The position numbers and the translations under genes were made by a program. Of a stretch of 64,000 nucleotides of DNA, positions 6,520 through 44,531 are shown piece after piece (position 1 is the stretch's first letter; every line of letters begins with the position of its first letter). This DNA comes from Prosthecobacter sp. (GTDB lineage Bacteria > Verrucomicrobiota > Verrucomicrobiia > Verrucomicrobiales > Verrucomicrobiaceae), in contig NZ_JAXMIH010000024.1 of the NCBI RefSeq assembly GCF_034366625.1, positions 124,001 through 188,000 of the forward strand, in the 5' to 3' direction. A model generated the notes under the pieces. It ran no database searches and was not told the DNA's origin. It saw only the letters and a program-made list of their open reading frames with translations.

Positions 6520-6555
6520 GCGTTGATTCAGGGTTGGAACGGGCAGGCACGGGGA

Positions 6556-6584
6556 AAAATTAGGCGGCGGGCAAAGTTGCCGCC
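6556..6584 (-). terminator. Putative Rho-independent terminator after the L,D-transpeptidase gene
   Basis: Read on the minus strand, the sequence forms a GGCGGC / GCCGCC stem with a 10-base loop, followed by TAATTTTT. It lies 149 bp past the L,D-transpeptidase stop and just upstream of the sigma-factor start. It could end the first transcript or act as an attenuator for the second. Confidence 0.45.
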
Positions 6585-6732
6585 AATTTCCGTCTTGGAA
6601 ACCGCAATTTGCGCCCACCCGAGCTGTCAGACTGGGTCTGAGACAGTCAACGGTCATGGATCAAGAATGAACAGGCCGCAACGCCTGACCTCGAAACTAC
6701 TTTGGGATCCGGCGTCGAGTTCTTGAGCCCTT

Positions 6733-7442: not shown

Positions 7443-8275
7443 TCACGGTTTGACGAGGAAGAAAGCCCGGAAGGCATCCAGCAGCGGCTGGGTGGTGACC
7501 TCAAGGCCGGTGGACTCGTCGATCCACTGCGACTGTGGATTGAGCAGGTAGTTTTGATAGGCGGCAGAAGCAGGGTCGGCATCGCCACTCCACAGACGGA
7601 GGCGTGAGCCGCTGGTGTGTGTCTGCACGCCAGGAGCCTGCGGGGTGGCGAGGCCGGTGCCGAGAAGTTGTGTGCCCGCAGTCTGCGGCAGCGCAAGCGG
7701 GGCGGTGCGGACCTCGCCAAGGAAGGTGAGCGTGGCCGGAGTGCTGCGAATCTGCACGAACATGCCTTCCTGCGGAGGGATGACGCGGGTGGAGACATCG
7801 GCAAGCGTGGAGCCGCCATCGACCACCCACTGCGGCGCAGCGGTGGCGGATTGCAGCCAGACAACCTGGAAGCGACCTGCAGTGGCATCGAAGAACATGA
7901 CGCGGTCCGCTTCTTCCGCCGCAGACGCAGGCTGGAGGACATCCGCAGGCAGCAGCGCTCCGAGCGTCCAATGCGGACGGATGCGGAGGCGTGCGCCGGT
8001 CATGGTGGTCTCGGCGACGGTGGTGAGCGTGATCGTGCTGCCAGTGGAGGCGGTGGTGTCGATGTCAAAGCTGCGTCCGGCCAGAGCGCCGTCGAGCACC
8101 TCAGCGTAGTAGCTCACGCCATTCTGCAAGTGAGTGCGGATGTCGATGCCGTTTGTGTTGAGCACGGCGATGCGACCACTGATGGAGCTGACTTTGCCGG
8201 TGTAAATGGCGGGCTGCAGCAACGGCATGGAAAGCGTCTGGCGACCGGCCTGGAACAGCCTCTGTGACCAGCCTT
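7443..8275 (-). other. C-terminal region of the giant protein (TIGR02597-like)
   Basis: About 280 residues from 'WSQRLFQAGRQTLSMPLL' to the end 'AFFLVKP'. The order of segments (a span on leaving a surface or gap, 'DRVMFFDATAGRFQVVWL', then 'VIPPQEGMFVQIR') resembles the TIGR02597 family known mainly from Verrucomicrobia. Just before it, at about 8580-8625, lies the segment DPDTDGLTNLMEYALG, a calcium-loop-like motif frequent near C-termini of secreted proteins in this phylum. Function is unknown; it could be a surface-attachment or export element. Confidence 0.5.
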
Positions 8276-11200
8276 GTGCCCCCGTCACGGCACTGGCCTC
8301 AGATGTGCCGTCGAGGTCGGCATCAAGCGTGACTTTGAGGCGCAGGAAGGTGGTGGTGACATTGGCGAAGCGCAGTGTTTCGGTCTGATCTGCGTTAGCT
8401 TTGGCAGCAGGCGTGATGGTGAGCGCCGTCCACACGACGAGATCATTGCTGCCTTCGAGGATGTAGCGCAGATCGCGATGCTCGCCCGCAGGACGCGTGA
8501 GCAGCCCGTCGATGGCACCGGTGACCGTGTTGTGTTCCAGAAGGAAGCGTGAAACACCGAGGCCATTGTCAGCTGCGGAGCCGAGCGCGTATTCCATCAG
8601 GTTCGTCAGACCGTCCGTATCAGGATCATCATTCGGGTTGTTGAGGCCGCCCAGATTGTGCTGCGACTGCCAGGCGGTGAAGGTGGACGGAGATGCGGAC
8701 TCCGCATCATTGCCGGCAAGATTGCGCTGCACGTGCGCAGCGTTTGGCTGTCCGGCGAGCACTTCGAAGCCGAAGTCGATCGTCATGATGCCGGAGGCGT
8801 CCGCCGCATCGTCCAAAAAGGCTTCGTAGCCGTTTTCACCCGCACTGGAGGTCGGGCTGCTGTTCACCGGCATGCTGCCATAGGCAAGGTTGATGAGACC
8901 GGAGGAGATGCCGTTGGCCGCAGGTGAGATGTCATCCACGCCATTTTCATCAAAGCGGTCATCCTTGCCGCTGTCGGCGGTGGTGGTGAGAAGAACGTTG
9001 CCGGTGCCGGTCACGGTGGTCATGCCATTGAGCGGCGCACCGGTGGCGAACATGGTGGCAGGAATATGCACATAATAGGCCGCCGCTGAGGGGGCGTAGA
9101 GCAGATAGGTGCCGTTGGATGCCGTGACCGCCTCCGAAACCGGTGTGTCGGTGACTGCCTGCGCCTGCTGGAACAGACGCACCGTCACATCCGGCACCGG
9201 CAGATCAATGCCGGATTCATAGGTGCCGTTGGCGTTGACATCACGGAAGACCAAATTGCCGACCATGAGGGCTTTCGGCTTGAGGCCAAAATCGAAGGTG
9301 AGATCGTTGTTGGCATCGTCAGCATTGTCGCTGGTCTTGTCGAAACCGGCCTCGCGACCATCCGCATCAGTGGGCAGGGTGCTAGGGATGGTGGAGTAGC
9401 TGGTGGTAAAGACACCGGTGATCTCAGGGCTGGTGGCAGGCTGGGCGTTTTGATTCAAGTTGTCGTCATAACCGGTGGTGGTGGTGATGCTTGGCACGAG
9501 GAAATTCAGCGGTCCGGCGGTGATGAACTGCGAGGCGGGGATGCGCACTTTGTAGGTTTGCGGAGCAAGGGCCGGCGGGCCATAGAGAACATAAGCGCCG
9601 GTGATGTCCGTCGTCGTGGTGCCAATGACGGACTCCTGACTGGTGGTGCCGTCAATGTGGACGAGTTCCACGGTGATGCCCGCAATGCCGCTGTCGATGC
9701 CGGTCTGGAATTTGCCGTCAGCATTTTCATCACGGAACACAAGATTGCCGACACCGAGACGGGTGGCGAAGCCGAAGTCAACGGTGAGGTCCACGCGTTC
9801 GTCGCTGGCATCATCGCTCGTTCCTTGGAAGCCGCTTTCGAGGCCGCCAGTCGGCGCCGCATTGGCCGTGAGAGTGGTGGGAAGCGAGGTGACACCGACC
9901 TGCTCGGGATTCTGCACGTCGATGCCATCCTCACCGATATCATCGTCGCCCATGCTTGCCTGATGGCCGCGCAGTGAGGTGGTGAGGTACAGCGGCCCTG
10001 ACCCTACGGGACCACCATTGATGCTGATCGACTCCTTGAAATTGTCTGCGGCGACGTGGACGGTGTAAGTGCCCGGGCTCAGATTGGTGAAGAAGTAACG
10101 GCCGTTCACGTCCGTGTAGGTGCTGCGGATGGAACTGGTGGATCCTGCGGTTCCAGTGCCTGCATACAGCAGCATCCATACACCGGGCACGCCTTCGCCA
10201 GCATCGGCGACGCCGTTGTTGTTGGCATCGTTGAAGACAAGGTTGCCGATGCTCATCAGATCCGGCAGGACACCACCGGTGAAGCCAAAGTCGATGGTGA
10301 GGTCCGCGTCGCCCTCATTGAAAGCATCTTGAGTGGCAAGGAAGCCCGTTTCCCCGGAGTCATCCTGTGGCTCGGTGTCGTAGGCGAGTTCGAAGACAAT
10401 GGAGCTGACGCCAGTGACGTCAGGATTCGTTGCATCCAGACCGTCTTCGTTCGCATCGTCGTCCATGCCATCATCATCCCCGAAGCCTGGGATGGAGGTG
10501 GTGCCGGCCAGGAGCGAACTGCCAGCGAACTCGGAAGCGGGAATGTGCATGAAGTATTGACCGGCCTCATAGGCGTTCAGGAGATAGGTGCCGTCGAGGC
10601 TTGTGGTGGTCTCCATCACTGGAACAGTGCCTTCGTTGGAAGGATCATCACCAAACCTGTAAAGACGCACCTTCACGCCCGGCACACCGAAGTCATCGCC
10701 ATCATAAGTGCCATTGGAATTTAAATCACGGAAGACGAGGTTGCCGACACTCAGCGGCTTCGGCGAGAAGCCGAGATCGACGGTCAAATCGACATTCGCA
10801 TCGTCAAAGTCATCGGATTCGGAGAGATAACCGGTCTCCGTGGTGGCCAGGGTCGGCGCATTGCCTGGCAGAAGAGTGAAGAGGGCCGTGCGCGCGCCTT
10901 CGACGAGCACGGAGCCGGTGGTGTAGCCATCCTGCAGAGTGTCGTCATCACCCTCAGTGGTGGTGATGATGCCGGAACCCGCCGCAACGGGCTTCGATGG
11001 CACCCGATTGGCCAGAGCGCCGCCTTCGGCAAAGCTGGAGGCAGGAATGCGGATGTGGTAGCCGCCGGGAGCCACATTGAAGTTGTAAAGGCCACCACCA
11101 AACGTGGTCGCGGTGGCAACAGCCATCGTGGCGCTGGTTTGATTCGACCAAAGCTCAACCGTGACACCATCGATGCCGTATTCGACGTTCGGATCGAAGA

Positions 11201-14200
11201 TGCCGTCATTGTTGGCGTCATTAAAGACCAGATTGCCGATGGAGACACGCGGCACAAAGCCAAGGTCGATGGTCAGGTTGGTGGCCGCATCGTCGATGTC
11301 ATCGCTGGAACCAAGATGGCCGCTCTCCTGGCTTCCAGTCGGAGAACTGGCGGGGCCGAGTTCAAACACGGCGGTCTGAATTCCGTTCCAAGACGGACTG
11401 CCGTCATCAACACCATCCTCACCGAGATTGTCATCACCCGTCTGCGCGCCAAGCACGCTGGCCTGGCCGTAGAGCGGCATGCCGAAGTCAAACTCCACTG
11501 CTGGCACACGCACAAAGTACCTGTCTGGCGGGAGATCGGTGAACAGATAGGTGCCGTCGGCCGCGCTGGTGGTGGTGGTAACAGGCGCATCAAACGGAAC
11601 AACCATGTCTTCGCGGTAGATTTCGAGAGTGACCCCGCCGACGCCCTCAGCCGCATCAGCGCGACCGTTGTAGTTGGCGTCGATGAACACGAGGTTGCCG
11701 ACGGCGACGGAGCGGAAGAAGCCGAAATCGATGGTCAGGTCGGCGTTGTCATCATTCACATCGTCACTGTAGGCGTTGTGACCAAATTCACCGAGCGAGT
11801 TGGTGGGCTCCCCATCAGGCGCCAGATGGAAGGCTGCCGAAACGATGCCGGTGGTGGACGGATCAATCACATCGACGCCGTTTTCATCCAGATTGTCATC
11901 AATGCCGTTGTCACCACCATCACCAGGCAGCGAACGCCAGCCGGAGAGCGGTTTGCCGGGGGTAAATTCTGAAGGCGGAATGAAGACCTGGTAATCACCT
12001 TCGGAGAGGTTGCTGAAGAGATAGCCGCCGCCATTGCTGGTGATCACGGTGGCGAGGGGATTGCCAGTGAGCGGATCGGCCGAGGCGGCAAAGAGCTGCA
12101 CTTTGACACCATCCATGCCTTCGCCCGCATCATAGAGGCCATTGCCATTGAGATCGAGGAAGACCAGGTTGCCAACGCCGACGCCGTTGGGATTCGAGGG
12201 GGCAAAACCAAAATCCAGGGTGAGGTTGAAATTGTCGTCATCGAAGGCGTCGATGTCATTGAAGGAGCCGCTTTCACCATTGGCATCCGTTGGCTCGGAG
12301 TTCACCGCGAGGCTGAAGACCGCGCTGGAGATGCCATTGAGGAACGGCGTGGGGTCATCAATGCCGTTTTCGTTCTCGGGTGCGTCGTCATCCACGACAG
12401 CGGTGACATTGCCGGCACCTGCGGAGGAATCCAATCCATTGAGCACATGCCCCGGCTCGAACTCAGAATAGGGAATGTGCAGGATGTAACTGCCCGCAGG
12501 CAGGGAATCGAAGAAGTACCTGCCACCACCGCTGGTAATGCGGGTGAAGAGCGGGATGCCGAACCCAGGTGTCTGGTTGCCACGATAAAGCTCCACCGTC
12601 ACGCCATCGATCCCCTCGCCAGTGTCGGCGATGCCGTTCTCGTTGTTGTCGATGTAAACGAGATTGCCGACACCCACAGGCGTCTGGAAGCCGAAGTCGA
12701 TGGTAAGATCGACCGCTGCATCGATTTGATTGTCGCCCGTGCTTTCAAAGCCGGTCTCACCACTGTCATCGGTGGGTGCGTTGCCCGGGAACAGGCTGAT
12801 GACGAGGGAGGAGACTCCGTTGACGACTGTATCGCCATTGTTGATGCCGTCTTCGCCAACATCGTCGTCACCGACGAGTCCTTCGAGAATGCTGATCCGC
12901 TGATACAGCGGTCCGCCAGACTGGAACTGCGAGGCCGGAATGTGAACCATGTAGTTGCCTGGACGCAGGAAGTTGAAACCATAGCGGCCTTCAGAATCAC
13001 TGGTGGTGAAGGCCATCGGGTTGTCCACGCCGGGGAACTGGGTGTCGGTGTAGAGTTCCATGCGCACACCTGGGAGGCCCTCTCCCGTGTCAAAACCACC
13101 GCTGGAGTTGTTGTCGGCGAACACGAGATTGCCGAGGGCCACAGGGCGGAAGAGGCCGATATCGACGGTGAGGTTGATGTTGAAGTCGTCGAGATCGGTG
13201 GAGGAGTCGTAACCGGTCTCGATGCCGTCATCGGTGGGGGCCTCCTCGCGCACGAGGTTGATCACGCCACTGCTGATGCCGGTGACCCAAGGCTCCTCTG
13301 AATCGAGCGAGTCTTCACCCGTGTCATCGTCACCGGTCGAGAAGCCGGGAAGGCTGAACAGACCGCGCAGACTGCCGGTGAACTCAAACTGAGGCGCCGG
13401 CAGATGGATGAAGTACTGCCCCTGCCAGAGATTGCTGAAGAGGAAGACGCCGCCATTGGCCGTGGTGGTGATGGCGACGGGCTGGGTGACGCCAGGTGTG
13501 TCCCCCCAGCGATAGAGTTCGATCACCGCGTCGTCCCTGCCTTCGCCCACGTCGAAGCGGTTGTTGCCGTTGGCATCGACATAAACCAAGTTGCCAATGC
13601 CCATGATGCCGGGTTCGACGAAACCAAAGTCCACGGTCATGTCGCCGTTGGCATCGACGGTGTAGTTGTCGATTTCACCGCCGCGTGCGTGCTCGGCTCC
13701 CGTGGTGCCGTTGCCGAGCGGCTCCGTGCCTGGCGTGAGCGTAATGAGCGGGCTTTTCACTTCCGTTTTCGGCCCGTCAGGCTGGCGGCCACTGTCATCA
13801 CCGTCGATTTGATCATCCAGAATGGAGCTGATGGGACTGCTGTAACCGCTGCCTGCAAGCGGCAGGCCATCCACAAAGTTGGATTCTGGAATCTGCACCT
13901 GATACACGCCCGGAGCCTGGCCGGAGAAGTAATAATGACCGTTCGTGTCGGAGTAGGTCCAGCCGATGAGCAGTTCCGCTCCATCCACAGAGCTGCCGTT
14001 CGCATCATGCCAGAGTTCGACACGCACGCCTGGGATTCCAGGCTCTCCCGCGTCCTGAATGCCATCCGCATCAAGGTCGTTCCAGATCACGGAACCAATG
14101 GAAACAGAATCCGGCAACGGAGCGAACGGACGGCCAATCGCAAGGTCACGCGGACCGGCCCAGATTTCATTATTTGGACCCGGTGGCCGCGGAATGGGAA

Positions 14201-17200
14201 CTTCGTGAACGCTGACGGTGCCATTCGGAGCGCCGGAGACATCGACACGGAGCAACGCACCACTGATGTAGGTGCCGGCATTGACCGGCTTGCCCCAGTG
14301 ATAGCCGGAGATGTAAAGCTGGTTGTTGGCAGGGTTGAACTCGACATCGCGTGTGTCCACCTCGCCCATGCCTGCGCTGGAGATGGTGGCAACGAGCTGC
14401 GGCAGCCCGGGTGCTGCAGGCGTGGTCAGATCCACGCTGAAGATTTCGCCATCGCTGCGGTTCACGCCGTAAAGCGTGCTGCCTTCGATGTCGATGCCGG
14501 AGATGAGCGCAATGGACTGGCCGCCTGGGACCATGTCCAAAAGCTGCGTGTCAGTGACAATGGTGCCAAGCAGGTCGCCGGTGGTGGCGTTGTAACGGCG
14601 CACCTCACGCACAGCACTGGTCTGCACAATGAGATAGAGATTGCCGTCCGGACCAAAGTTGATGTCCTCGACACCGCCCTGAGAGATGAATGTGTAGGGC
14701 GCGACGCCCATCGGAGCACCGGGTGTCGATCCCGAAGGGCCCTGGAAGCGCACGATGCGACCACCATTCACATCGACGACGTAGAAATTGCCATCGGGGC
14801 CGATGGTAAACTGGGCGATCAAGCTCACACTGGCGGTGGAGTTGTCGAGCACGGGACCAAGGTCCGTGCCGGAGGGGCTGATTTTGCGGATGTTGCTCGC
14901 GCCGTAGTGGGCGACGTACCAGTTGCCGTCCTGGCCGAGCTCCATGGCATAAGGCACATCACCATAGTCCGCATTGCCCTGGCTGAGGCTGCTGCCGAAA
15001 GCGGACACAAGCGATCCGGTATAAAGGCCGGTGGTGGCATCGAAAGTTTGAACGCTGTCAGCCTGAGTGGCGGAGACATAGATGCTGGGGTTCACATTCA
15101 GGAAGCCAAAATCGACCGTGGTCTCGTCATAGGTGCCTCCACCGGTGCCTGGTTCATCGGCAGCGGTCAGCGTGATGATGTGACTGTACACGGCCCCGCC
15201 ATTGACCTGATGGCCGTTGTCATCATCATCGACCCCATTATCCATGAAGGTGGTGGTGCTGCTCGAAAGCGGCTGTGCGGCAGGTGGTGTAGGAATGCGC
15301 ACATAGACCTTCAGCGGGGGCAGCGCGGTGAAAAGATACGCGCCACCGCCACTCGTGGTGGTGGTTCTCAGCAGAACATCATCCGTGCCGCCGATGCGGG
15401 CATCCTCCCCTGCCGCCCACAGTTCCACATTGACACCATCGATGCCGGGTTCGCCGTTGTCACGGAGGCCGTTGTCGTTGGTGTCCTGCCAGACGAGGTT
15501 GCCGACGCTCATGCCTCGGAAGATGCCGAAATCGAGAGTGTAATCGGTGTCAGGGTCAGCATCATCCACAGTCGGCTCTGCGCCGGTGGAGAGTGTGATG
15601 ATGGGCGAGAAGATTGGACTGCCAGGACCGCCGGGCTGCAGGGCGGAGTTGTTGTCGTTGTCGATGCCGTTGTCGAGATTCACCGGATTGCCGCCGGGGA
15701 TGTTCAGCGCGGTGGGCATGAGCACGCGCAGGAAGAAAGCGCCGGGCTGCAGATCGTCGAAATAATACTGCCCCAGCGCACCAGTGGTGGTGCTGCGGAG
15801 CATGAGATCGCTGTTCGGGCCGCTGCCGCCAATGGCACCATCCGCACCCGGATCCCAAAGTTCCACCGTGATGTCCTTGATGCCAGGCTCACCAATGTCC
15901 CGAGTGCCGTTGAAGTTGGTGTCTTCAAACACGACATCGCCGAGGCTCAGCCCCTTCACGAGCAGTGAATAGGACTGCGTGGAGGAGCAACCGTAGGTGT
16001 CCGTGGTACGCACGGTGAAGCTGGCCGTGCCGTACACCTGCGACGTGCCGGAAATCAATCCAGCGGACGACAAAGTGATGCCTGCTGGCGGCGAACCGGC
16101 GATCACACTCCAGGTGTAAGGTCCGGTGCCGCCGCTGACACTCAACTGCTGGCTGTAAGGCGTGCCATAGTAAGCATCTGACAGCGTGGCCGGAGTGATG
16201 CTGATGGACGGGCAGTTCACCGTGAGCGTGTAGAGCAGTGTCTTGACGCAATCGAACGCATCCCGCGCTTCCACCGTGAACGAGGCGGTCGTCGCCTGGC
16301 TGGGAGTGCCTGAGATGATGCCGTTGGAGCTGAGCGAGAGCCCCGGCGGCAGTGTGCCGCTGACCACGCTCCACACATAAGGCGCGCTGCCACCCGTAGC
16401 ATTCAACGGTGCGGAGTAGGCGGTGCCCACGGTTCCATTGGAAAGTGTGGAAGGCGAGATGACAAAATCCGGGCAGCGGATGGTGATCGTGTAGGGCTGT
16501 GTGCCAGGTGCGCCGTTCGCATCCAGCGCCTGCACGGTGAAGGAATAGGCGCCGGGAGCGGCCGTGGTGGTGCCGGAGATGACTCCTGTGGAGGAGATGC
16601 TGATGCCGGAGGGCAGATTGCCGGTGAGTTTGCTGAAGGTATAAGGCGAGGTGCCGCCTGTGGCGGTGATCTGCTGGAAGTAGGGGACGAGGCGCGTGGC
16701 ATCCGGCAGCGTGGGCGGCAGGATCGTGATGGGCGGATAGTCCACCGTGAAGGTGTACTGCTGGGTCGCGGTGCAGTTTTCCGCATCCGTCGCACGCACC
16801 ACAAAGGTGCTGCTGCCCAGGCTGGTGGGCGCACCGCTGAGCACACCACCACTGGACAGCGTCATGCCCGTCGGCAGCACACCGGAGGCAAGACTCCAGG
16901 TGTATGGAGCCGTGCCGCCACCGACAGCCAGATTCTGGCTGTAGGAGGCATATTGAACCGCCGTGGGCAGCGGAACCGGGCCGATGGAGAGCACCGGGCA
17001 CGCGATGACGATCTGGAGCGGCAGCGTGGCGGAGCAGTTCACGCCATCCGTGGCGCGCACGGTAAAGTTGTAGGTGGCAGGTGCTGCCGATGGCGTGCCG
17101 GAGATCAATCCCGCATTGCTCAGAGACAACCCGGCGGGCAGCGTGCCCGAAACAAGGCTCCAGGTGTATGGTGCCGTGCCGTTCGCCGCCGCCAACTGCT

Positions 17201-20200
17201 GCGGAGCATATTCCACGCCCTTGGTGCCGGATGGAAGCGCCGGAGCGGTGATGCTGATGGCCGGGCAGTTGACCACCACGGGATAAACGCCCGAACCGGC
17301 GCAGCCGTTGGCGTCCAAGGCGGTGATGGTCACGTTGTAAGTGCCGGGAGCGCTGGTCGGCGTGCCGCTGAGCACACCGCTGCTGCTGAAGCTCATTCCA
17401 GCGGGCAGCGTGCCGCTCAGGCTCCATTGATACGGGGCCGAACCATTGCTGGCGCTGAGTGTCTGCGGGGCATAGACCACGTATTGCACGGCGGCGGGCA
17501 GCGTGGCGGGCGTGAGGGAAAGCGTCGGGCAGGTGATGGTCCAGTTGATGGAGTTGTCCACCATGCAGCCGTTTGCATCTGCGGCGCGGATGACAAAGCC
17601 ATAGATGCCAGGCGTTCCAGTCACGGTTCCGGAGAGAAGGCCGCTGGAGGAAATGGCGACACCCACCGGCAACGTGCCCGACGCACGCGAGTAAGTGTAG
17701 GGCCCTGTGCCACCGCTGGCGGTGAACTGCTGGCTCACGACTGAATTTTGTGCCACGGCTGCAAGGCTGGCGGGTGACAGCGAAAGCGTGGGGCAGACCA
17801 CACGCAACGTCATCGCCTGCGTGGCGGCGCAGTTGGAGGCATCACGCACACGCACAGTGAAGTTATAGGTGGCCGGAGCGGCTGTGACGGTGCCGCTGAG
17901 CACACCGCTGCTCGAAAGCGAAAGTCCGGCAGGCAGCGCACCGCTGGTGATACTCCAAGTGTAAGGAGAATTGCCGCCCGCAGCGCTGAAGGTGGCGCTG
18001 TAGGTGGAACCTTTCATCACATCCGCCAGCGTGGCAGGCGTGATGCTGATCACCGGGCAGGAGTTCAGACCAAAGTCGATGGTGTTTTCCGTGTTCGTCG
18101 CCCCCGTGCTGCCGGGTTCGCCACCCGCTGTGAGCTGAAACACCATGCTCTTGATGTCCGAACCCGCACCGCCCGGCTGCGAGCCATTGTTGTCGTTGTT
18201 CACACCGTTGTCCGTGGTGACGACCGCACTGCTGGCCAGTGAGTACGCTGCCGGAGGCGTCAGACGCACGAAATAACTGCCTGCCGTGTACACTTTGAAA
18301 CTGTAAGCGCCGGTGCTCAGCGTCGAAGTGGTTTGCAGGACGGAATCTGCATCCGCTCCACTGCCGCCGATGAGGCCGTCGGCCCCTGTGCTCAGGAGTT
18401 CAACCTGCACACCGCTGACGCCGGACTCGGTGGTGTCCTTGAGGCCGTTGTTGTTGGTGTCCCGCCACACGAGGTCGCCCACGGTGAGGCCGGTGAAGAG
18501 ACCAAAATCGATGGTGTTGTTGCCGTTGGTGCCATCACCATCCACAGCAGATCCAGGTTCGAGTGCGACGGCAAGCTCCACCACCGGACTGAACACCGCC
18601 GTGCCGGGGCCGCCCGGCTGCGCGCCGTTGTTGTCGCCATCAATGTCGTTGTCGAGCACGACAGCCACACCGCCGCTGCCAGGAATGCTCAGCGGAGGCG
18701 TCACACGCACGTAATACCTGCCTGGAACGAGATTACTGAAGATATAACCGCCTGTGCTGGTGGTGACCACGCTCGCGCCGACCTGTGCATCAGCATTCAG
18801 GCCTGAACCACCGATGACGCCATCCGCTCCAGGGCTGAAGAGTTGCACCGTGGCTCCGCTGATGCCGAGTTCGGTGCCGTCACGCACGCCGTTGTTGTTG
18901 GTGTCATTCCAGACAAGGTTGCCGACGCTCACCCAGGGTGAAACGGAGCATGGTTCGGTGGCGATGGTGAAGACGCCTGCGGGATCGGTGTCAAACGCCC
19001 CCTCGGTTGTCGCTCCAGGTGTGTAAGCAAAGGAGGTCAGGCAGCCGTTGGCATCGTAGGTCGGTGCAGCGTTCAGATCGATCATGCGCAGCACGGTTCC
19101 AGCATTGCCTCCGGCCTGGATGCCCTCCCAGGTGCCGGCGTTAATGCCGAGCGCCGCCCAGTTGCTGGCGTTGTTCACGCGGCTGACATCCAGCACGAAT
19201 TGGAAGCGCACGGATGCGCCGGTTTCAGTGACCTGCTTCAGCAGGATGTCGGAAGCGGTGGTGCTGCCGGATGCGCTGCTGACCATGAGATTGGCGGCGA
19301 TCTGCCAGCTTTCGTAGCCGAGCGCCGGATCGTGGCGGTAGATCGTCACCTGCGGATTGGCGCGGTTCAAACCGTCCACATACACGACGGCGTGATCGGC
19401 GGTGGCCGGATCAGAGCCGGTGCTGACGAGGAAACGCAGGGCATCCACCTTGCTGCCTCCGATCTGGTTCAGCGTCACGTCCAGGGCCAGACGGCTCAGC
19501 GCCGCGTCATAGACCATGTCCAGACTGTCGAGATGTGCGATGGTCGGCGTATAATTGAAATCGTAGGCCTGATCCGGCGTCAGTTCCGTGGTCTGGTGGA
19601 TGACGCCATCACGATTCACATCCGCCAGCAGGAAGTGATAGCAGCCGGTGGCGGCAGGACCGGAGGACTTGAAGCCCAAATCCACGGTCATGTTGCCGTT
19701 ATCATCATCGCCATCGTCCAGGGTGTTGAACGCGCCGCTTTCACCATTGCTGTTGATCGGCTCCTCATCGTCCAGAAGCACGATCAGTGAGCTGGTGATG
19801 CCGTTGGTGGCAGGAAGGGCGTTGTCGATGCCGTCGTCGTTGCCCACGATGTTGTCATCCAGGTTGCTGTCCGTGGAGGAGGCAGGTGAGATCGAGATGG
19901 AATTGACCAGCGGCTTGCCGCTGGCGAATTCGGAGGCGGGAATGCGCACGTAGTAAGAGCCAGGCACCACGTTATTGAAGATGTAACGGCCAGTATTACT
20001 GCCGCTGCTGATCGTCGTGGTGCTGGCAACAAAGACGCCGGAGCTGTTGAGCAACTCCACACGCACGCCCCCGACGCCTTCGGCGGAATTATAAACGCCG
20101 TTGTTGTTGCCGTCCTTGTAAACCAGGTTGCCAATGCTGCAGAAGGTCGGACGCAGGCCGAAGTCGATGGTGGTGTCGGCATTGCCGCCGAAAGGAGCGA

Positions 20201-26200: not shown

Positions 26201-29200
26201 TGGCGCTCATTTCACCCTGTGGCACGGTGTAGTACTGATAGATGCCCGGTGTCGCGCCGGTGATGATCTGGAAAATCTGCGCGTTCGCGCCGAGATCCCA
26301 CAGAATCGAGGCGGCGCCGGCTGAAGCGCTGGAGGCCCAGACGCTCAGCTCGTATTCCTTGCCCGGCAGCAACACCGTGCTCCAGGCGCCACCACCTGCC
26401 GGACGCAGGCTCGCACAGGAGTTGGTCCCCTGCAGCAGCAGCATGCGTTTGCCATGGCGGCTCTTCACGCTCTCCATCCAGGAAACGCGCGAGCCGTTGT
26501 TGCCAGAGAGGATCTGCACGCGCTGCACCGGCTCACCGATGCCGCTGGTGCCGTTCGTGCCGCCGAGCCACTGGAATGCGTTGATGTTCGCACCAAACGA
26601 CGTGCCCGTGCCGTCATAACCGAGCACCATCGTCGATGTGCCGGTCGTGTTCGGAAGCCCCTGGAATTCAAAGCTGGGGTTGTCGATGAGATTGGTGATC
26701 TGGCACGGGTTGGCGTTGGCAAAGCCGATGTCGATGGTGCTGTCGGCATCGGTGTCATCACCATCGGTGCCGCTGCCGGGCTCCGTGGTGGGAGACAGCG
26801 TGATCAATGGTGTAACCACCGGATCGCCGGAAACAGACTGGAGGCCGTTGTTGTCATTGTTGACGCGATTGTCGAGAGCCACCTGGCTCGTGCTGATCTT
26901 CGGATAAAACGTCGGCGGTGTAGGAATGCGCACGTAATAGATGCCCGGCGCGAGGTTGTTGAAAAGATAGACGCCGTTGGCGTCTGTGGTTTTGGCGGAG
27001 CCGATCATCACGTCATCACCAGCGCCGTTGTCCATCGCTCCGTTGATGCCTGGCGACCACAACTGCATGAGCAGGTTCGGCACACCGCTTTCCATGGATC
27101 CGCGCAGACCGTCGTCGTTCATGTCGATCCATACCTGGTTGCCCAAACTCATGCCTTTGACGAGGAACGTAACGGTGCTGGTCGTACTCTGGCAGTTGTA
27201 GCCGTCCGTGGCACGTACGGTGACGGTGTAGCTGCCGAGGGTCGTCGGTGTGCCACTGAACGTGCCATCGGAGGCCATGGTGAGTCCCGGCGGCAAGGTT
27301 CCGCTGATCAACGCGAATGAATAGGGAGCGGTTCCACCGCTCGCAGTGAGAGTTTGCGAGTAGCTGGTGTTGAGATAGCCATTGGACGGCGGAATGCCGC
27401 CGAGTGTGATGACCGGACAGACCGGTATGACCGTGTAGGAGCGCGAACCTGGGCAACCATTCGCATCCGTCGCGGTGAGAGTGAAGGTGACGGGTGTGGA
27501 CGTCGTCGCGGTGCCGCTGAGAACACCGGTGCCGCTGTCGATGCTCAACCAGGCAGGCAGGCCGCTCGCAGTCCATGTCAGCGGCGTGGCGCTGCTGCCA
27601 CTGGCGGTCAATGTTTGTGCATAGGGGAAACCAATCACCGGCGCGGGAAGTGTGGCCGGAGTGAGCGTGATGACCGGGCAGACCTGCACCTGACGACTCA
27701 CCAGGCCGACACACCCTTCGGCATCCGTGATGCGAACGGTGATGCTGGTTCCTCCGGCATTTTCAGCCGTCGGCGTGCCCGAAATCACGCCTTCACTCGA
27801 AAGCGAAAGACCATCTGGCAGCGTGCCACTGCTCAAGGCAAAGGAATGCGGCGCGGTGCCGCCAGAAGCAGTCAAAGTCTGGGAGTAAGCCGTACCCACC
27901 GTAGCCTTGGAGAGGGTTGCCGGCGTCAGCGTGATGATCGAGCAGCGCGGATCAAGCGTGTAAGCCTGCGTGCCTGTGCAGCCGTTCGCGTCGGTGGCAC
28001 GCACGGTGAAAGTGATCCGAGTGGCATCGGGTGGAGTGCCGGAAATCACACCCGTGCTGGCATTCAAGGCACACCATACTGGAAGCGAGCCGCTGGCGAT
28101 GGTGAACTGATAAGGAGCGACACCCCCAGAGGCACTCACGGTCTGCTGGTATTCCAAGCCCACCGTCGCCGGTGGCAGCGCGGAAGGATTGAGCGTGATG
28201 ACCGGGCAAACCTGGAAGGGCAGAACACGAGTGCCGGCGCAGCCACTGGGATCGGTGGCACGCACGGTCACATTGACACCGATGCCATTCGCCACCGTTG
28301 GAGTTCCGCTGATGATGCCCGTGGCCGGATCAAGGGAAAGTCCTGCGGGCAGAGTGCCGCTGGCAATGCTCCACGAATGCGTGAGCCAGCCGGTGACCGT
28401 CTGCATCGTGTGCGTTGGCCCCGACCACTGCAAACGTGCGACGGCCGAGCCTGCGTTTTCATAAAATTCCATGCGGACAGGCACCACCGTTCCTGCCGTC
28501 AAAGAAAGGGTCGCGCTGTATGTCGTGGCTGACTGATCCTGCCAGTGGTCGATGATCAGCGTGTTGTTGACCCAGAGGCGGATGCCGTCATCGGACGTGC
28601 ATTGGAAGGTGTGCGTGCCCGTTGCAGACGGCCGGATGAAACCGTTCCAGCGCACGGAGAAATTGTCAGCGGGAACCGAGGCATGCGGCGAACCACTGGT
28701 CCAGTCGAAATCAACCGAGCTGTCCTGGCGGGTCAGCACGAGCGTGTCGAAGCTCTTGCCGGTGTAGTATTGACCGGTCAGACCGGATTGCGGCGATGCG
28801 GTCAGCGTCTGCGAATAAGCCTGCCCCACTTTGGCAACCGCAGGCACGGCAGGATCGATTGTGATCGTCGGGCAAACCGGTGGCAGTGTGTATTCGCGTG
28901 AACCGGAGCAGAGATTCGCATCCGTTGCGGTGATGGTGAAGGTCACTGAGGCGGCATTGCTCGGCATGCCGGACAGCGCACCCGTGCTCGGGTCGAGGCT
29001 GAGCCATGCAGGCAATCCCGTGACACTGAAGATCACCGGAGTGGCCGTGGTGCCGCTGACCGTGACTGTCTGTGAGTAAGGAACACCGATCAGCGGAACG
29101 GGCAGCGTGGTGGGATTCACGGTGATGACGGGGCAGACCTTGATGCTGAGCACCTGGTCTTTGTAGCAGGTGTCGGCATCCATCGCGCGAATGGTGACGC

Positions 29201-32200
29201 TGGCTCCGTCCACGCCGCTGGTCGAGCCCGTGGGTGTGCCGCTGATGACACCATTGCTTCCGAGACTCAATCCCGCCGGAAGTGAACCGGACACCGTGCT
29301 CCAGGTGTAAGGCGTGGCGCTGCTGCCGTCGGCCGTCATGGTCTGCGAATAGGCCGTGCCGACGACGCCAGCAGCCAATGTGGCCGGAGAAATGGCGATG
29401 TTCGGGCAGGGACGGAAACCAAAGTCGATGGTGTTTTCAAAACTCGTACCGCCGGACGATCCCGGTTCCGTGCCGGTGGCGAGCGTGATCAGCGGGCTGG
29501 TCGCGCTGGAGCCCGTGCCGCCCGACTGAGTGCCGTTGTTGTCATTGTCTTCACCGTTGTCCGCCGTGTCCGCAGGTGACGCCAGCGTGTAGATGGATGA
29601 CGGCACCGGCACACGCACGCGATAGCTGCCAGGAGCACAGGAGCCGAACAAATAACGCCCATCCGCACCCGTGACGGTGCTCATCAAAACGCTGCCGCCG
29701 CTGTCCAACAACTGCACACCAACATTCGGAATGCCCGTCTCACCAGAAGCCGGCTCAAACAGCCCGTTCGCGTTCAAATCGGCAAACACGAGGTCACCCA
29801 CGTTCACACCGTTGTTGAGACCGAAGTCGATGGAGAGTTCAGTGTTGGGATTGGTGTCGCCATCGTTCATCGGCTCCGTGCCAGGAGCCAGCGCGATCAT
29901 GGGGCTGAAGATCGGTGTTCCCGGCCCGCCAGGCTGAAGGCCGTTGTTGTCGTTGTTAATCCCGCTGTCGAATGGAATGACACCCCCGGAGGTTGCAGGC
30001 AGGGATGCGGTGGGTGTGACCTGCACATAATAGGTTCCCGCAGGAACAGAGCTGAACACATAGGCACCGCTGCTCGCAGTGGTGATGGGCGGCGCCACCT
30101 CGTAGTCGGCATTGGCACCCGTACCACCGCGCACACCATCCGCACCAGGATGGAACAAACGCACCACGGCACCTGCCACACCAGGCTCGCCCAGATCCTT
30201 GATGCCGTCACGGTCGGTGTCCTGCCACACGGCATTGCCGAGACAGAGACGGCCTTCCGCCGCTGGAATGCGCTGGAACAAAATCGAATCCTCAATGGCG
30301 GAAGGATTGTTGCCATACACGCCCAGCGTGTTGCCGTCGGCAGAGATGCCGTCGCCGCCGTTGTAGATGTTCCAAGAGGCGTAAGCACTGTCCTGTGCGG
30401 CATGGCCGTCAGAAATCAGCAGGTCGGAGATGCGTGTGTAGAGAGTCGTCGGCGAATCCCACATGACAGCGAAACTGCCGGATGAACCCGTGCTGTAGAT
30501 CGAGCCAAGAGCGCGTCCGGTGTCGCTGATGGCACCCACAATGCCCCCCAGGCTGTCCTGCGGCAGAACGCGGGGCAGATTGGTGCGCAAGGTGGTCAGC
30601 GTGTCGTAAACGAACGGCACCGGCACACCGGAAATGCGCTGGCTGGAACCGACATAACGTCCGTTCGGGCTGAGGCGGCCGCCGCGAAGTGAACCACCGG
30701 TGAAGGTGACCACCGTGGTGCTCCAACCGATGGTGGGATGACCGCTGATCACCTTGCCCACGCCGCTGCTGTCGATGACGAGCAGCTTCGTGCCATCTGC
30801 GGAGGCATCATACATCTCACGCACGCCGGAGATCGCCGTCCACACACGGGAATTGAGATTCCACCAGCCGCCCTGGGACATCAGCGGTCCCGAAGGGCCG
30901 TCCGGGTCCACCGTGCCAAATGCATAGGTGCTGTCGGCAGTCAGCGCGCACGGCAGGGCATAAACGCTGGCATTGCCATCGTAAGGCGTGAGCAGGCGCG
31001 TGACCGTGCCGGTGGCATGGTTGTAGAACCAGGGGATGACGTTGAACTTTTTGCCGCTGGTCCATTTTTCATGACCGACGACGTTGCCACTGTCATTCAC
31101 GTCACCACCCATCGCATAGGGATGCGAGGCATCCACCAGAGGAATGTCCACGTTGGCGTGTGAGAGCGTGCTCATCACAAAACCACGTGTCTTGAGACCA
31201 AAACGGATGCCGGTGATCCAGCGGCCATCTGGAGACATGTTGAAGATACAGTTGCCCTGGCTTTGAGTTTCACCCCCAAACACATCGCGGCCGATGCGGG
31301 TCACGAGATAGGAAACGCCGTTCGTGCGGCCCAGCGGGTCCGGACAGTTCCCCACGGCAGGAGCCACAAGAAGCATGCGCGTGACGGTTGTTTCACAGCC
31401 ATTGGAATCAAGCGCAGACACCGTCACCTCAGTGCCGCCCGCCGTGGTGGGCATGCCGCTGATCACGCCATCGGAGCTCAAGGCAAGCCCTCCAGGCAGG
31501 GTGCTGCGAGCGGTGTAAACGTAGGGACCGCTTCCTCCAGAAGCGGCCAGGGTGACATTGTAGGCCACACCTGCGGTGCCGCTCGGCAACTGCGCTGGCG
31601 ACAGCGCGAAGGTGGTGCAGTTGGAGAGACCGAAGTCAATGGTCATCTCCGAGTTCGGACTGCCGTCCCCGTCAGTCATCGACTCCGTGCCCACGGTCAG
31701 TGTGAACACCGGACTGAACAACGGCGCGCCCGCGCCACCCGGCTGGCTGCCGTTGTTGTCATTGTCGGTTTGATTGTCCACCACACCGGGCGTACCAGAG
31801 GTATAGGGCAGCGCGACGGGCGGCGTGACACGCACGAAGTAAGCACCAGGAGCCAGGCTGCCGAAGTTGTACAAACCAGCGCCATTCGTCGTGCTCGAAG
31901 CGACCAGCACGTCCGCGTTCGCACCGGAACCGCCCACCGCGTTGTCGGCTCCAGGTGTGAACAACTGCACCTGCAGACCCGAAACGCCGTTTTCGCCCGA
32001 ATCGAACAGACCGTTGTTGTTCACGTCGTTCCAGACAAGATCTCCAATCTGCAGGCGTGTCACTTCAAAGTCCTGCGCCGTGATATCTTGGTTCGTTTCG
32101 AGCGTGATGCTGATGTTGTTTGGCGCTCCACCATCAGAGTCGATCCAAGGATAATAAGTCGCCGCCGGTGTGTGCGTGGTGTTGTAATAGCCGGGCAGGA

Positions 32201-35200
32201 GGTTGGTGAAGCTGAACGCGCCCGACGCATTCGTCGTGGTGTTGTAAGGCACGTCATCCGCGGTTCCTGGAATGCCGTCGCTGCCTGCGTGCGTCAGTGT
32301 GACAGCCACCCCGGAGAGGCCGGTTTCACCCACTTGGGCGATGCCGTCGCCATTGCCGATGACAACACGGCCCGCCACGCTGCCGAGCTGCTGAAGGTAA
32401 CCGAAATTCTTGCCGGTCACACCGGCTGTGAGCGTGGTGATGACCGTCTGCTGATCCTTAGTGGCATCCGGATCACCCGTCTGCGTGTAACCCTGCGCCG
32501 CTAAAAACTCTCCCTGCACCACAAGGGTCACATGCGCGCCAGAAGAGATGCCGCTAAAGCTGAAGATGCCGCCGGCATCAGTGGTCAGTGTCAACGTGTC
32601 GTCCGTGCCGCCGTCGTTGTTGGAATCCACCAATGCCTGCACCGCGATGCCTGAGATGCCGGGCTCCGCGCCATTGATGATGCCATCACCCGCCACACCA
32701 CCACTTTGACCGCCATCATTCCACACACGGCCGCTGACGCCAAATGTGGCGGAGAGAATGCTGTAGCCGAAATGGAGTCCGCTCACCGTTCCACCGTTCG
32801 TGATGGTGACGGTGGCGTTGCCATCCAGCGGTGCCACGGGATCAGCGGTGGGCGTGGCGGCATATCCAGGCGGCAGGCTCTCAGAGCGCACCTTGATGAG
32901 GTGCGTGGCGTTTTCGAGGCCTTCAAAACGATAAATCCCGTCCGTGCCCGTGACACGCGAGTCAAGCAGCGTGGTTCCAGCAGAGTTGTACAGCTCGACC
33001 AGCACGTTGGCCAGTCCGCTTTCACCGGCTTGACGCGAACCGTTGCCATCCGCGTCCGCAAAAATCGTTCCTGTGGCGACGCCGGCATGATCGCGACCGA
33101 AATTGATGTCCACGATCTCGTTGCCTCCCACCACACTCATCCCATAAGAGGCAAGCGTGGTGACACGGCTGAGAGCGACGGGAATATCCGCGTCATTCGA
33201 GGCATAGGCCACCGTGTAGGCGCCGGGAACAGTCAGGATGAAATAACTGCCATCCGCCGCGCTGACGACAGACTTGGAAACAGGGCTGCCCGACACGTTG
33301 GTGCCAGACAGAGTCACGGTCACGTTTGGCAGGCCGGGTTCGCCCGCACCAAGGAGACCGTCGGAATTCACATCATGGAACACATGCCCTTCGATCAGCG
33401 CCAGCTCGCCAAAACCAAAGTCTGCGGTGAGCACCGCAGCACCTGGGGCCAGCGTGACCGGGCTCTCCTCGCCTGTGGTCGGCAGCATGGTGTCAAAACG
33501 GCCCGCATTCGGGCTGGTGGGCGGTGCAGGGACGTGCTGCTCCTCGACACGCACCACATATTTGCCACCCGGCAGGCGTGAGAGAAGATATTGGCCGCTG
33601 GCATTCGTACTGGTGAACGCCATGACAGCTTCGGTGGCATCCACCTCGCCGTTGGCGTTGTCATCGGCATAGAGTGTGACACGCGTGGACGCGATGCCGG
33701 GCTCGTCATCCGCGTTGCCCAGGATGTTGTCCGCCCCGTTGAGATCCTGCACACCGTCGAAATTGGTGTCATAGAAGACGACATCGCCGATGCTGCCGGT
33801 GTGATTGTGGCCGAAGTGAGCATTCGTCACATTCTGCGCGGCGGCCAGCGTGATGCGGTGCAGACCGGTGGTCAGTGACAGCGTGGAAGTACCTGTCACA
33901 AGCTGCATTCCCGCCGACAGGGTGCTTTCGATCACATCCACCAGATAATTCGCCGCGCCCAAGCCGCTGAAACGATAGGCACCGCCCACATCGCTCACCG
34001 CCTGGCGCATGAGCAGGTCGCTGGATTCGATGCTGCCGTTGTTGTTGAGGTCTCGGTATAAACGCAGCGTGATGTTGGACAGGTTCTGTTCGCCTGCATC
34101 GATCACCGCATTTTCATTCGCGTCGCTCCAAACGGTGCCGCGAATCGAGCCGCCGTTGGGGTCTGGCGGGATAAAGCCGAAGTCCGCGTCGTTGATTTGC
34201 GTGCCGTTGGCCGCGAGCGTGCGTTGCAGCGTGGGGGAGGTCGTCGCCACCCAGTCGGCGGGCAACGAGGCGAGATCAACGCTCACGGTCCAGGGTGCCC
34301 CACCGTTCGCCGTCAGGCCGAACACGCGGTAGCGGCCCAAACCGTCGCTGGTGGCGGTTTTGGTGATCGTGCCATTGCTCACATTGATCTTCACACCGGA
34401 GAGACCCGGCTCGCTGACATCCTGCGTGCCGTTGGCGTTGGCATCGGCAAAGACGGCGTCGCCAATGCTGCCAGTGAGCGCGGTCTGCACGGTCTGGCTC
34501 GCTGTCTGGGGGATGGCAGTGGGAGAAGAGGCGCAGGCGAGCGCCTGGTGGTCGGTGTAAGCAGCAAAGCTGGCCGTCAACGCAACCTCACGCGTGGCCG
34601 CACCGGTGAGCGGATCGATCTGCCAGAGCGTGTTGTTCGTCGCGGCCGCTCCGCTGTTGCCGGTGGTGGCGCGGAGGAAACCATTCGAGTCGAAATTCAA
34701 GCCACCGACATCATTGATGCCAGTCGTGGTGCCGGTCAGTGTGACACGACCGATGTCAGTGACCGCGCCGGTCAGGATGTCGATCTTGATCAGGCGGTCC
34801 TGATCTCCCATTCCCGTGGTCGAATCGTTGGCGATGGCAAACAGCTCACCCGTTGCGACCTGGAAGCTCATGTCGTCGATGTCGTAGAGTGCGGTTGGCA
34901 GCGTGTTGGTGGCCACCGGCACATAATCCACACCCGCGCCGAACGCGTCCTCGACATGCATGCCGGTTTCGGGATCGATCTGGAACAGCACATCGAGCAG
35001 TGTGTTGCTGTTGCTGGCGTCCTCACGGCGATGAACGGCATAAATCAGGCCGGAGGCCGGATCGGTGTCCATGGCGGTGATTTTGAGCACGGTTAAGCTG
35101 CCCAGCGCTCCTTCGAGTGGATTGGTACTGTTGGCCGCCCGGCCAATCGGCGTGAACATCGCGGTGGCAGGATCAATTTTCCCAATCAAGTCAGCCCCCG

Positions 35201-38200
35201 AGCCCGCCGTGGCATCGCGGTCGGCCGCGTAGATCTGGCCTTCGGAGTTCAGCATGATGGCACGCACCTGCGTGGTGCCGGTGGCCCCCACATCGGTCAC
35301 CTGACCTTTGTCCACCTTCAGCAGGCGGTCTTCATCCGCTCCGCTGGTGAGGTTGGCCACGACGTAGCTGCCGCGGAACTCGTTGGTTTGGATCGTGGCG
35401 ACGTTGTCCACCGAGTCGAGGGCGCTGGCATCCGCCACGTTGATCGTCACCGTCAGCGGACGGGTGGTGATGACGCCATTGGAGGTGGATGCGGGGAAAC
35501 TGCGGCCGCCGGAGCTGAACGCGGGGTTCGTAAACATCAGCGTGCCAGGATTGGTGCCCGCCGAGACCGTGTAAGTCCAGGTGAAGGTGGTGGAACCGTC
35601 TAAAGGTACAGTCGCGATCGTTGGCAGCGGGCCTGAGACCAGCGTGGCCGTGGTACTGTTCGTGCCGGAAACGGACAGGGCCGGAGGTGACACTCCATTG
35701 ATCTGCGCCTCGGTTGAACTGATGGTCATCGTCACCGTTGCCGTGCTGCCATGCAGGACCAGAGAAGGCCGGACGTTGAGTTCCACCGACAGTTCGGTGG
35801 GCACCGGAGCACCGTATTCCACCATCGCACCGCCGCCCTTCACATAGACCGGCATGCTGGCCAGAGAGGCCCAGGTATTGGCGGAAGGATTGTAGCGCCA
35901 GACGTTGGTGGAACTGTCCCCGCGCAACGCGTAGATGGTGGAGCCTGCATGAACCAGCGCGGCCCCTGAATAGGCCGTGTTTGGGGCGGAAGCACGGGTG
36001 CTCCAGGAGTTCGATGAACGATCGTAGCGGTAGAAGGTGGAGCGATCCCCGCCGCGGAAGGCATAAATGTAGGTGCCGTCAAAAGTCAGCGCACCGCCGG
36101 AGCTTATGCTGCTCGGTGTCGAAGCGCGTGAGGTCCAGGTGTTGGCGGAGGGATCGTAACGGTAGAAGTTGGATTTGTCATCGCCACGCAAGGCATAGAG
36201 ATAGGTGCCGTCGGTCGTCAAAGCAGCGCCTTGATCCGTGTCGCCCGGAGGGGATGCGCGTGTGGTCCAGGTGTTTGCCGCCGGATCGTAACGATAAAAC
36301 GACAGGGTATCGTTTCCGCGCAGCGCATAGAAATAGGGCGCACGATAAACCAGGGCTCCCCCTTCTCGGATGGCTGCGGGCGTGCTGGCACGGGTCGTCC
36401 AGGTGTTGGCGACAGGATCGTAGCGCCAGAAGGAAGTACTGTCGTCACCACGCAACGCATAAATGTGGGTGCCGTCTGAAGCCAGAGCCCCGCCCCAATT
36501 GACCGTGCCGGGTGCATTGGCTCGCGCCACCCAGGCTCCCGTGCCCGCATCGTAACGGTAAAAGCCCGTCTTGTCGTCACCTTGGAACGCAAAGAGATTG
36601 AGGTTCTGCACCAGCGATCCCGGCACACTCTCCGTCGTGCTGCCGAGATTCCAACTCACACTCTGACCGGTACCGGTGCGTGACACGTTGAGACTTGGGG
36701 AGATGCCATGACCGAATGCGTAGCTTCCCGCCGCCGCTCCGCAGTCAAAGCTGATGTCACCGCTGCCTGCGCCCGCGTCCACTTGATAGGTCCAAGTGAA
36801 CGCCGTGCTGCCTCCGGCTGAGATGCTGGCGGTGGCTGATGTGGGGCCGCTGACCAGCGTGGCGGTGGCGCTGCCGGTGGCGTTCACGAGAGGCAGATCG
36901 GGCACGATGTTCGTCATCGCGCCAGTGCTGGTGAGCGTCATCGTCAGGGTGACGAGATCACCATTGCGGCACAGGGTCTTGGAGACTGCGAGTGCCGTGG
37001 TCGTCTGGGTCGAGGCCGCTGCGGGGCGGAAGGCCGCCCAATAATTGGCAACGCCGAAGGCATTGGCGCGTGTGTCCGAACCGACCTGGAAGCCGTCGCT
37101 CTGCAATAGCTGGATGTTGTTGGAGGCATTGGAGCTGGCGCTGCCAAACATGGACAAATCCCCCGTGAGCGAGGCAGGGCGCATCACCGCCGCCACTGCC
37201 GACGCACTGCGCAGCAGCACAAAGGAGGGCTGGAAGGTCACATCGCTGATGCTACGGTCATCGGTGCTGTTGCCTTCATACAGCCCCGTGGCCGTGATGC
37301 CCTCCAAGGGCTTCCAGGCGATGTAATGGTAAACCGTGGAACTGGCGTTGCTGCCGGTGCCCACTTGGAAGCCAGAGGAGGTCAGCCCTGTGATCAAGTT
37401 CGTCGCGGCCGCATTGCCGGTGAAAAGGAACGACTCACTGTCTCCCATCACATCCATTTTCATGACGGCCGAGGAGGACGTGGCAGGCAGGACAAACACC
37501 GTTCCCGGCTTGAAGCCCGGATTGGTGATCGTGCGGGAGGACGCGCCATTGCCAGTGTAGCTGCCCACACTGAGCACACCACTGGCCGCGCGGAAGGCGA
37601 TCCAGTCATAGCGCATGCCGTTGCTGTTCACCGCCGAGTTGTTGCCGAGCTGGAAGCCATCGGAGAGCAACGACTGAATCAAATTGGTGGAAAGCGTGTT
37701 GGCAGTGACAAGCTTGGCCGCATCTCCGCTCATGGATGAGGTGCGGATGACCGGCGTCACGCTGCTGGCCCCTTTGACGATGACCACGTCCGGTTGGAAA
37801 CCGGCGCCGGTGATAGTGCGATTGTCGGAACCGTTACCGGTGTAGGTGCCGGTGACCATCTGCACGGTGGGATTGCCCGCGCTGCCGCTCACGGCTGGCT
37901 GGGAGGCAAAGGTGTTCAGCACGCCCCCCTGCCCCGCGCTGACAAAGCTTGTGCCGGACGGCAGGGCATCGCTGATGGAAAGACTTTTGAGCGCATCTTC
38001 CCCAGGATAGTTGGGCGTGAGCGTGTAAACGATCTGGTCCCCCTGCACTGCCGAGGCACGATTGGCCGCCTTGGTCAGGAGCTGTACAAAGGCAAAGTCG
38101 GCGGTCAAATAGGACTCACCCGCCTCCAACGCCACCGCCACTTCTCCCACAATCGCGTGATACCCAGGCGGCATCGCGACAGAGGTGGCGTCCAGCTTCA

Positions 38201-44380: not shown

Positions 44381-44531
44381 CCGAAGACAAACGTGCCAGG
44401 CGCTGCTCTTTCGTCGCACTTTCCATCGTCACATAGCCTTGGTTCGCCCGAAGCTGTCTTCAGATCTATTGTGGAAGGCGCAAACAATGTGATGGACTTG
44501 CGGTGACTCAACACAGAGAGTTTCGTTTATC

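Follow-up and report, generated by a model that had tools for sequence, protein, structure and literature searches.

A single conserved 11,242-codon gene of Prosthecobacter encodes a predicted giant secreted stalk protein with a histidine-initiated head

Introduction

Can a bacterial reading frame of more than 11,000 codons be one gene, and what would a protein of that size do at the cell surface? The question is raised by a locus of Prosthecobacter sp. (genome 6.65 Mb, 30 contigs), analysed here within a window, by which we mean the whole 64,000-nucleotide stretch G000:C24:124001-188000. Huge proteins of more than 5,000 residues are widely described, with extracellular repeats and a trend towards the PVC superphylum, according to the accessible part of PMC11573180. 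The original prediction for this locus, made from the letters of the DNA, was a single uninterrupted gene for a secreted protein in which binding modules alternate with stalk modules, possibly as an adhesion or capture fibre. The frame is as follows:

7443..41171 (-): complete gene, 11,242 codons with an ATG start; precursor of 1.156 MDa, pI 4.2

The giant frame is one conserved gene

Measured from stop to stop the frame has 11,247 codons. Its sequence (7443-41171(-)) contains zero Ns, and Tandem Repeats Finder reports a 23-base array of two copies as the sole tandem repeat within the gene. Among 30 random 64-kb sequences drawn from a first-order Markov model, the longest stop-free frame was 469 codons. 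Third codon positions are 73.8% GC, which probably accounts for the long frames that overlap the gene, such as 13404-15968(+). The encoded chain is very acidic, with a net charge of about -571. At an elongation rate of 15-20 aa/s one copy would take 9-12 min to translate, in keeping with the many minutes originally predicted.

The N-terminal 424 residues are matched in 17 of the 68 genomes of the family, own genome included, and for comparison we fetched the regions of ten relatives and three own-genome paralogues. In Prosthecobacter sp. HKST-UBA37 (G031), 11,236 codons align with 78.4% identity and 13 gap runs. Overall pS is 0.59 and pN 0.13, giving a dN/dS of 0.12, and the ratio stays between 0.07 and 0.22 in each of 23 consecutive codon windows, which are 500 codons long except for the last one, of 245. 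Against G024 and G026 dN/dS is 0.30 and 0.32, respectively, values that are rough at the high synonymous divergence involved. Frames closed at both ends are present in six relatives (stop-to-stop lengths): G031 (11,396 codons), G029 (9,922), G003 (9,393), G024 (11,510), G026 (11,332) and G019 (12,122), the last being the isolate Brevifollis gellanilyticus NBRC 108608. In G020 a frame of 9,296 codons runs off its contig, and another genus contributes three genomes with frames of 5,580-5,834 codons. The order of blocks is conserved among the long relatives, with copy number shifting most in the first He_PIG array; the block layout is more divergent in G003 and in the shorter g5 proteins.

An assembly or annotation artefact, in the form of joined genes or a chimeric contig, is extremely improbable in the face of closed giant frames in six other genomes, one of them an isolate, and of a reading frame under selection along its whole length. 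A collapsed assembly or a frameshift is very unlikely for the same two reasons. Taken together, these comparisons bear out the predicted single gene, and the proposed comparison with giants of Prosthecobacter and other Verrucomicrobiota yields both a full-length counterpart in G031 and the six closed frames: 7443-41171(-) is one conserved gene for a megadalton stalk protein that is predicted to be secreted. The selection result indicates that a bacterial gene of 11,000 codons can persist as a single unit.

Upstream, argG is divergent to the giant gene and is present in four of the 16 stretches searched, some of which are too short to reach it. Downstream lies a second neighbour:

6733-7365 (-): YkuD L,D-transpeptidase-like lipoprotein gene (73.1 bits), starting 77 bp past the giant-gene stop

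This gene follows the giant gene in G031 too, the G020 stretch has a weak YkuD-like match far upstream (32% over 139 residues), and the remaining stretches searched have no match. Since YkuD-type enzymes can link proteins to peptidoglycan, an anchoring role for this neighbour is conceivable. The surrounding DNA also holds a right-handed beta-helix (NosD-like) gene at 43157-44419(-), whose G031 copy is 85% identical over 417 residues, and a sigma-70-family factor gene at 5971-6657(-) with, directly behind it at 4562-5971(-), a gene whose product has a YfbK C-terminal domain; the latter pair was not found near the giant-gene orthologues searched. Elsewhere in the same genome there are other giant open frames, at C8:867497, C6:588956, C23:563051, C23:366469 and C22:384, with 10,491, 8,918, 6,557, 6,413 and 6,140 codons.

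A long stalk with nested binding-type modules

Seven domain families score above their Pfam cut-offs in the giant protein: SdrD_B, He_PIG, DUF11 (three stretches within the first 4,000 residues), DUF7483, kelch, PA14 and LamG. Behind the head, the main blocks, from the N-terminal to the C-terminal side, are:

39117..39845 (-): DUF11 units that follow the head, roughly aa 443-685; strongest stretch 443-538, position of the second unit judged by eye
38091..39113 (-): three SdrD_B-like units, aa 687-1027, from the own-unit profile
37194..37859 (-): DUF7483, aa 1105-1326, Pfam 58.8 bits against a cut-off of 27
35802..36614 (-): kelch propeller, roughly aa 1520-1790; four Kelch_1 stretches, limits judged visually
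31626..34475 (-): eight SdrD_B-like units forming one block, aa 2233-3182, from the own-unit profile
27171..29417 (-): first He_PIG array, aa 3919-4667, the most variable in copy number among relatives
28404..28790 (-): PA14, aa 4128-4256, nested within a He_PIG unit
22077..25100 (-): second He_PIG array, aa 5358-6365, from the own-unit profile
24096..24569 (-): Laminin_G_3 (LamG), aa 5535-5692, nested within a He_PIG unit
15966..18068 (-): third He_PIG array, eight units, aa 7702-8402, from the own-unit profile
8766..14108 (-): eleven long SdrD_B-like units forming one block, aa 9022-10802, from the own-unit profile

Profiles built from the protein's own units count 35 SdrD_B-like units and 25 He_PIG units. 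The He_PIG number is a corrected one: from 28 profile matches at E <1e-3, one that fell on a DUF11 unit was dropped, and two units halved by PA14 and LamG were each counted once. The median pairwise identity is 33% among 29 SdrD_B seeds and 45% among 18 He_PIG seeds, so the units are not recent copies of one another. In all, about 60 stalk units are accompanied by ligand-binding-type modules nested in or between them, with PA14 and LamG located mid-chain, at neither terminus.

Most of the module assignments originally made by eye are upheld. Pfam finds PA14, LamG and kelch at 105.6, 100.2 and 76.8 bits, respectively, and SdrD_B and He_PIG are recovered by Pfam as well as by the own-unit profiles; a 'CBM-like' module, also proposed, has no Pfam match in the giant protein. 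The overall reading stands in part: there is strong support for one giant secreted protein rich in stalk units, and the propellers, which had been taken for binding modules, need not bind. The original prediction did not cover the conserved head or the C-terminal module, which are the most informative regions of the protein.

The head begins with a histidine at the predicted mature N-terminus

The N-terminal region of the protein contains the following elements:

41016..41171 (-): long signal peptide, aa 1-52, with cleavage predicted from the sequence at A52|H53
39837..41015 (-): head domain, aa 53 to about 445, with no Pfam or NCBIfam match
41013..41015 (-): codon of the first histidine of the mature protein (H1, aa 53), invariant in 51 of 51 rows
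39897..39899 (-): codon of head H373 (aa 425), histidine in 49 of 51 rows and Asn in L097 and L098

The long signal peptide, with its conserved cleavage-type site, agrees with the proposed secretion of the protein. An H[NY][LV] motif stands at the predicted mature start in 51 of 52 loci, while the 52nd, the partial L089, reads A|HY. In all 51 motif loci residue -1 is A, G or S and residue -3 is small or aliphatic. We aligned the head of the window with those of 50 loci (51 rows; the partial L072 and L089 were excluded). Over its approximately 390 residues the alignment has 48 invariant columns, many of them polar, and the only conserved histidines are H1 and H373. The placement of H1 at the predicted mature N-terminus holds down to 37% pairwise identity, and the two rows with Asn at position 373 form a long branch in the tree. 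H373 is bracketed by a pair of cysteines, both of which are present in 29 rows and neither in 22, with no row carrying one alone (scored with three columns of slack; exact in 26 rows, first cysteine shifted in three). Since the cysteines occur together or not at all, a disulfide is suggested.

The head loci span eight phylum labels, namely Verrucomicrobiota, Lentisphaerota, Kiritimatiellota, Planctomycetota, Hydrogenedentota, Chloroflexota, Thermodesulfobacteriota and Pseudomonadota, these labels being taken from the submitters' titles, and some of the genomes being bins. The tree has one PVC-centred and one Chloroflexota-centred side, which fits a history with or without transfer. Among the matches listed, with up to four candidates per genome, the head is found in at least two of 387 phylum genomes, own genome included, and on this count it is rare beyond the family. 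In ten of ten relatives, chosen from different groups of the 50 loci, both DUF11 and SdrD_B follow within 800 residues behind the head, and the three therefore seem to travel together. The head proteins L093 and L096 (Chloroflexota) end in the hydrophobic strings RLFLPRVSN and RLFVPFIVR and lack the Verrucomicrobiota C-terminal module; these tails may be lineage-specific ends on a shared head. L076 and L078 (both Verrucomicrobiaceae) and L089 look broken, in that their frames end in a tail that appears out of frame and the C-terminal module lies on another frame downstream, through either sequencing error or a real frameshift.

None of the 51 head sequences has a Pfam or NCBIfam match at E 0.01, a search against the sequences of solved structures gave a single chance-level match (E 0.91), and a Foldseek fold search gave zero matches at E <= 0.001. 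The AlphaFold2 model of the head has a pLDDT of 93.1 and a pTM of 0.91. With VIA-align, 120-143 of its residues, spanning both ends of the chain, fit the Ig-like sandwiches of pilins, integrins and alpha-2-macroglobulin (Z about 8.4-10.3). Because these spans leave it uncovered, an insert of about 250 residues is likely. No LPMO is among the Foldseek or VIA-align matches listed for the head, and no CopC among the VIA-align matches listed, absences that carry no weight.

A mature N-terminal histidine is argued to be a natural chelate, and four families of this type have been characterised, as described in the accessible part of PMC12537917. Because a histidine opens the predicted mature head and a second one is conserved within it, we propose that H1 and H373 form a histidine-brace-like metal site, a proposal whose chances fall just short of even. 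The histidine is the first residue of the mature chain if cleavage occurs as predicted, and the second histidine is kept in 49 of 51 rows; its replacement by Asn in the other two speaks against a brace. With 48 head columns invariant, invariance alone does not set H1 apart.

C-terminal modules with a candidate role in export or anchoring

The last 440 residues of the giant protein comprise two modules:

8328..8687 (-): C-terminal module 1, DxDxDGLxNLxEYALG followed by a beta domain; profile match G000:C24:132328-132687
7446..8234 (-): C-terminal module 2, TIGR02597-like, reaching the stop; model match 7686-8234, under the cut-off

A profile of module 1 (A1) has 24 matches in the own genome, that of the window included, and every one of them sits at its frame end, 0-57 residues from the stop; only four of them continue into a TIGR02597-like part. 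A second profile, built from 19 of the remaining own-genome sequences, chosen up to their stops, has 33 matches in the own genome and at least one match in 30 of 59 phylum genomes. At the strong loci that were fetched (L131 being from the own genome) all 24 matches end 0-7 residues short of the stop. The other six of the 30 fetched loci are weak, partial and mixed: 16 residues separate the match from the stop in L156 and 13 in L157, the best copy of L155 ends 147 and its weaker copy 36 residues before the stop, and no stop is near the matches in L158 (500 residues from the locus end), L159 (213) and L160 (168). Collectively, these positions make the C-terminal module a candidate export or anchoring signal.

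For module 1, NCBIfam gives a weak Amuc_1099 match in three of the 19 sequences (best E 7.8e-4) and none in the first member. Within the C-terminal 600 residues TIGR02597 is the sole NCBIfam match at E 0.1, scoring 35.2-35.9 bits in the giant protein against a cut-off of 50, and no T9SS type A sorting domain is found; SprA_N has no match in the genome, yet 14 controls are equally silent. No known surface anchor was matched in the giant protein by Pfam or NCBIfam, and the tail had one chance-level match (E 0.68) among the sequences of solved structures. Two structural candidates for the tail were rejected: a phage tail tube protein, from one Foldseek match (7.9e-4) with poor superposition, and the lambda tail tip and gene transfer agent proteins, which VIA-align placed near noise (Z 8.4 and 8.1 over 72-74 residues). 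The G003 orthologue has a different C-terminus. Adjoining it, an upstream frame of at least 3,241 codons (L055:1-9725(+)) carries the C-terminal modules.

The genome's only TIGR02597 match above the cut-off is a separate 447-codon frame (436.7 bits). This stand-alone gene lies at L165:5817-13302 (G000:C15:23817-31302) beside PEP-CTERM-like, GspK-like and GspD-like secretin genes, the latter two scoring above the Pfam and below the NCBIfam cut-offs. The cluster is possibly T2SS-like, and because the TIGR02597 gene adjoins GspK-like and GspD-like genes, it hints at a secretin-based route. Six secretin matches occur in the own genome, which also carries a Verru_Chthon cassette A gene at another site.

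Discussion

An adhesion or capture fibre is a plausible and the most economical reading of the giant protein, and for the specific claim of a giant fibrillar surface protein acting in this way we put the chances at even. On such a scheme, the chain would be exported by Sec, and signal peptidase I would expose the first histidine. The C-terminal module would guide the chain across the outer membrane or attach it there, and the stalk, probably hundreds of nanometres long, would hold the head, PA14, LamG and propellers off the cell. H1 and H373 could then chelate a metal ion to bind or oxidise a polysaccharide surface. The head is probably more than a spacer, because it is common to several phylum labels and its two conserved histidines could chelate metal.

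Two other roles for the whole protein have to be weighed against the adhesion or capture fibre. As a structural protein of the envelope or matrix, for example in a sheath, prostheca coat or capsule scaffold, its units would pack laterally and its nested lectin-like modules would cross-link the cell's own polysaccharide, capturing nothing foreign. Even purifying selection, the small length change against G031, a block order that is fixed in relatives and modules that are distributed along the chain and not at its tip would all suit such a part, but a patchy occurrence (17/68 family genomes, at least 2/387 phylum genomes) is odd for a basic structural component and the He_PIG array is variable, and we judge this role unlikely. 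We give no better prospects to a secreted enzyme platform, in which the head would be a metal-dependent oxidase or monooxygenase and the remaining chain would hold it on polysaccharide. Here H1 in 51/51 rows behind a cleavage-type site, H373 in 49/51, the many invariant polar residues of the head and the presence of PA14 and LamG modules all point the right way, and GbpA, an LPMO and adhesin in one, offers a precedent (accessible part of PMC11729483). However, the head has no relative in Pfam, NCBIfam or the sequences of solved structures and no Foldseek match at E <= 0.001.

The role of the first histidine can be judged apart from that of the fibre. It could be structural or serve protein contacts, with the head an adhesive or capping Ig-like domain free of metal, and this comes close to being an even call: with 48 invariant columns H1 need not be catalytic, and the head shares its core fold with the sandwich domains of pilins and integrins (Z about 9-10). 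What it leaves less well explained is a histidine whose position coincides with the predicted mature N-terminus in relatives down to 37% pairwise identity and the fact that H1 and H373 are the sole conserved histidines. The most far-reaching proposal remains tentative, and we lean against it. It holds that the head is a new histidine-brace-type metalloprotein family topping long stalk proteins across at least eight phylum labels, that a mononuclear metal site would sit at the tip of a megadalton surface fibre, and that the Verrucomicrobiota fibres would end in an unnamed C-terminal sorting domain shared with dozens of further proteins in the same cell. If the head does bind metal, metal or redox chemistry would be joined to fibre-based adhesion, and a direct test of function would be at hand for the giant proteins of the PVC group. 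The C-terminal module, for its part, gives Verrucomicrobiota a concrete candidate for export or anchoring.

Comparison with known systems

The giant protein is most readily set beside the FA-like proteins, with which it shares an extracellular location (in its case predicted from the signal peptide and cleavage-type site), great length, stalk units, PA14-type modules and one chain per fibre, as far as the accessible parts of PMC8286594 and PMC9210967 describe them. SdrD_B is classed there as a stalk domain, and the 35 SdrD_B-like and 25 He_PIG units form a repeated-domain stalk of that kind. Unlike FA-like proteins, the giant carries its lectin-like modules inside stalk units, is built from many more units and has an unnamed head. 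The adhesive region of FA-like proteins is usually terminal, whereas here PA14 and LamG are central and the terminal head has no family match. None of the anchors listed in the accessible parts of the two papers was recognised in the giant protein, and the string Verrucomicrob is absent from the main text of both. With the staphylococcal MSCRAMMs SdrC and SdrD (NF000535, NF012181) it has SdrD_B units in common, but its first 4,000 residues score 175.1 of the 1,700 and 280.5 of the 2,500 bits set as cut-offs, and no sortase-type C-terminal end is seen. To the TIGR02597 family the resemblance is partial, the C-terminal region aligning to model positions 33-237 of 363.

Like the histidine-brace proteins (LPMOs, CopC and the families in the accessible part of PMC12537917), the head would be secreted, with a first-residue histidine, one conserved internal histidine and an Ig-like core; LPMOs have an Ig-like sandwich-type fold, as stated in the introduction of that paper. 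The head differs from them in its approximately 390 residues, its insert of about 250, the absence of a sequence match to any known family (0/51 in Pfam or NCBIfam at E 0.01) and its position on top of a giant stalk protein. The strings Verrucomicro, Chloroflex, DUF11 and SdrD do not occur in the accessible main text of PMC12537917, and in a partial survey of the open-licence literature we recognised no description of the head or the C-terminal module. Relative to the huge proteins in the accessible part of PMC11573180, the present case adds selection over the full length and two end modules. Giant proteins and long adhesins are thus already known; what is new is the head family and the C-terminal module.
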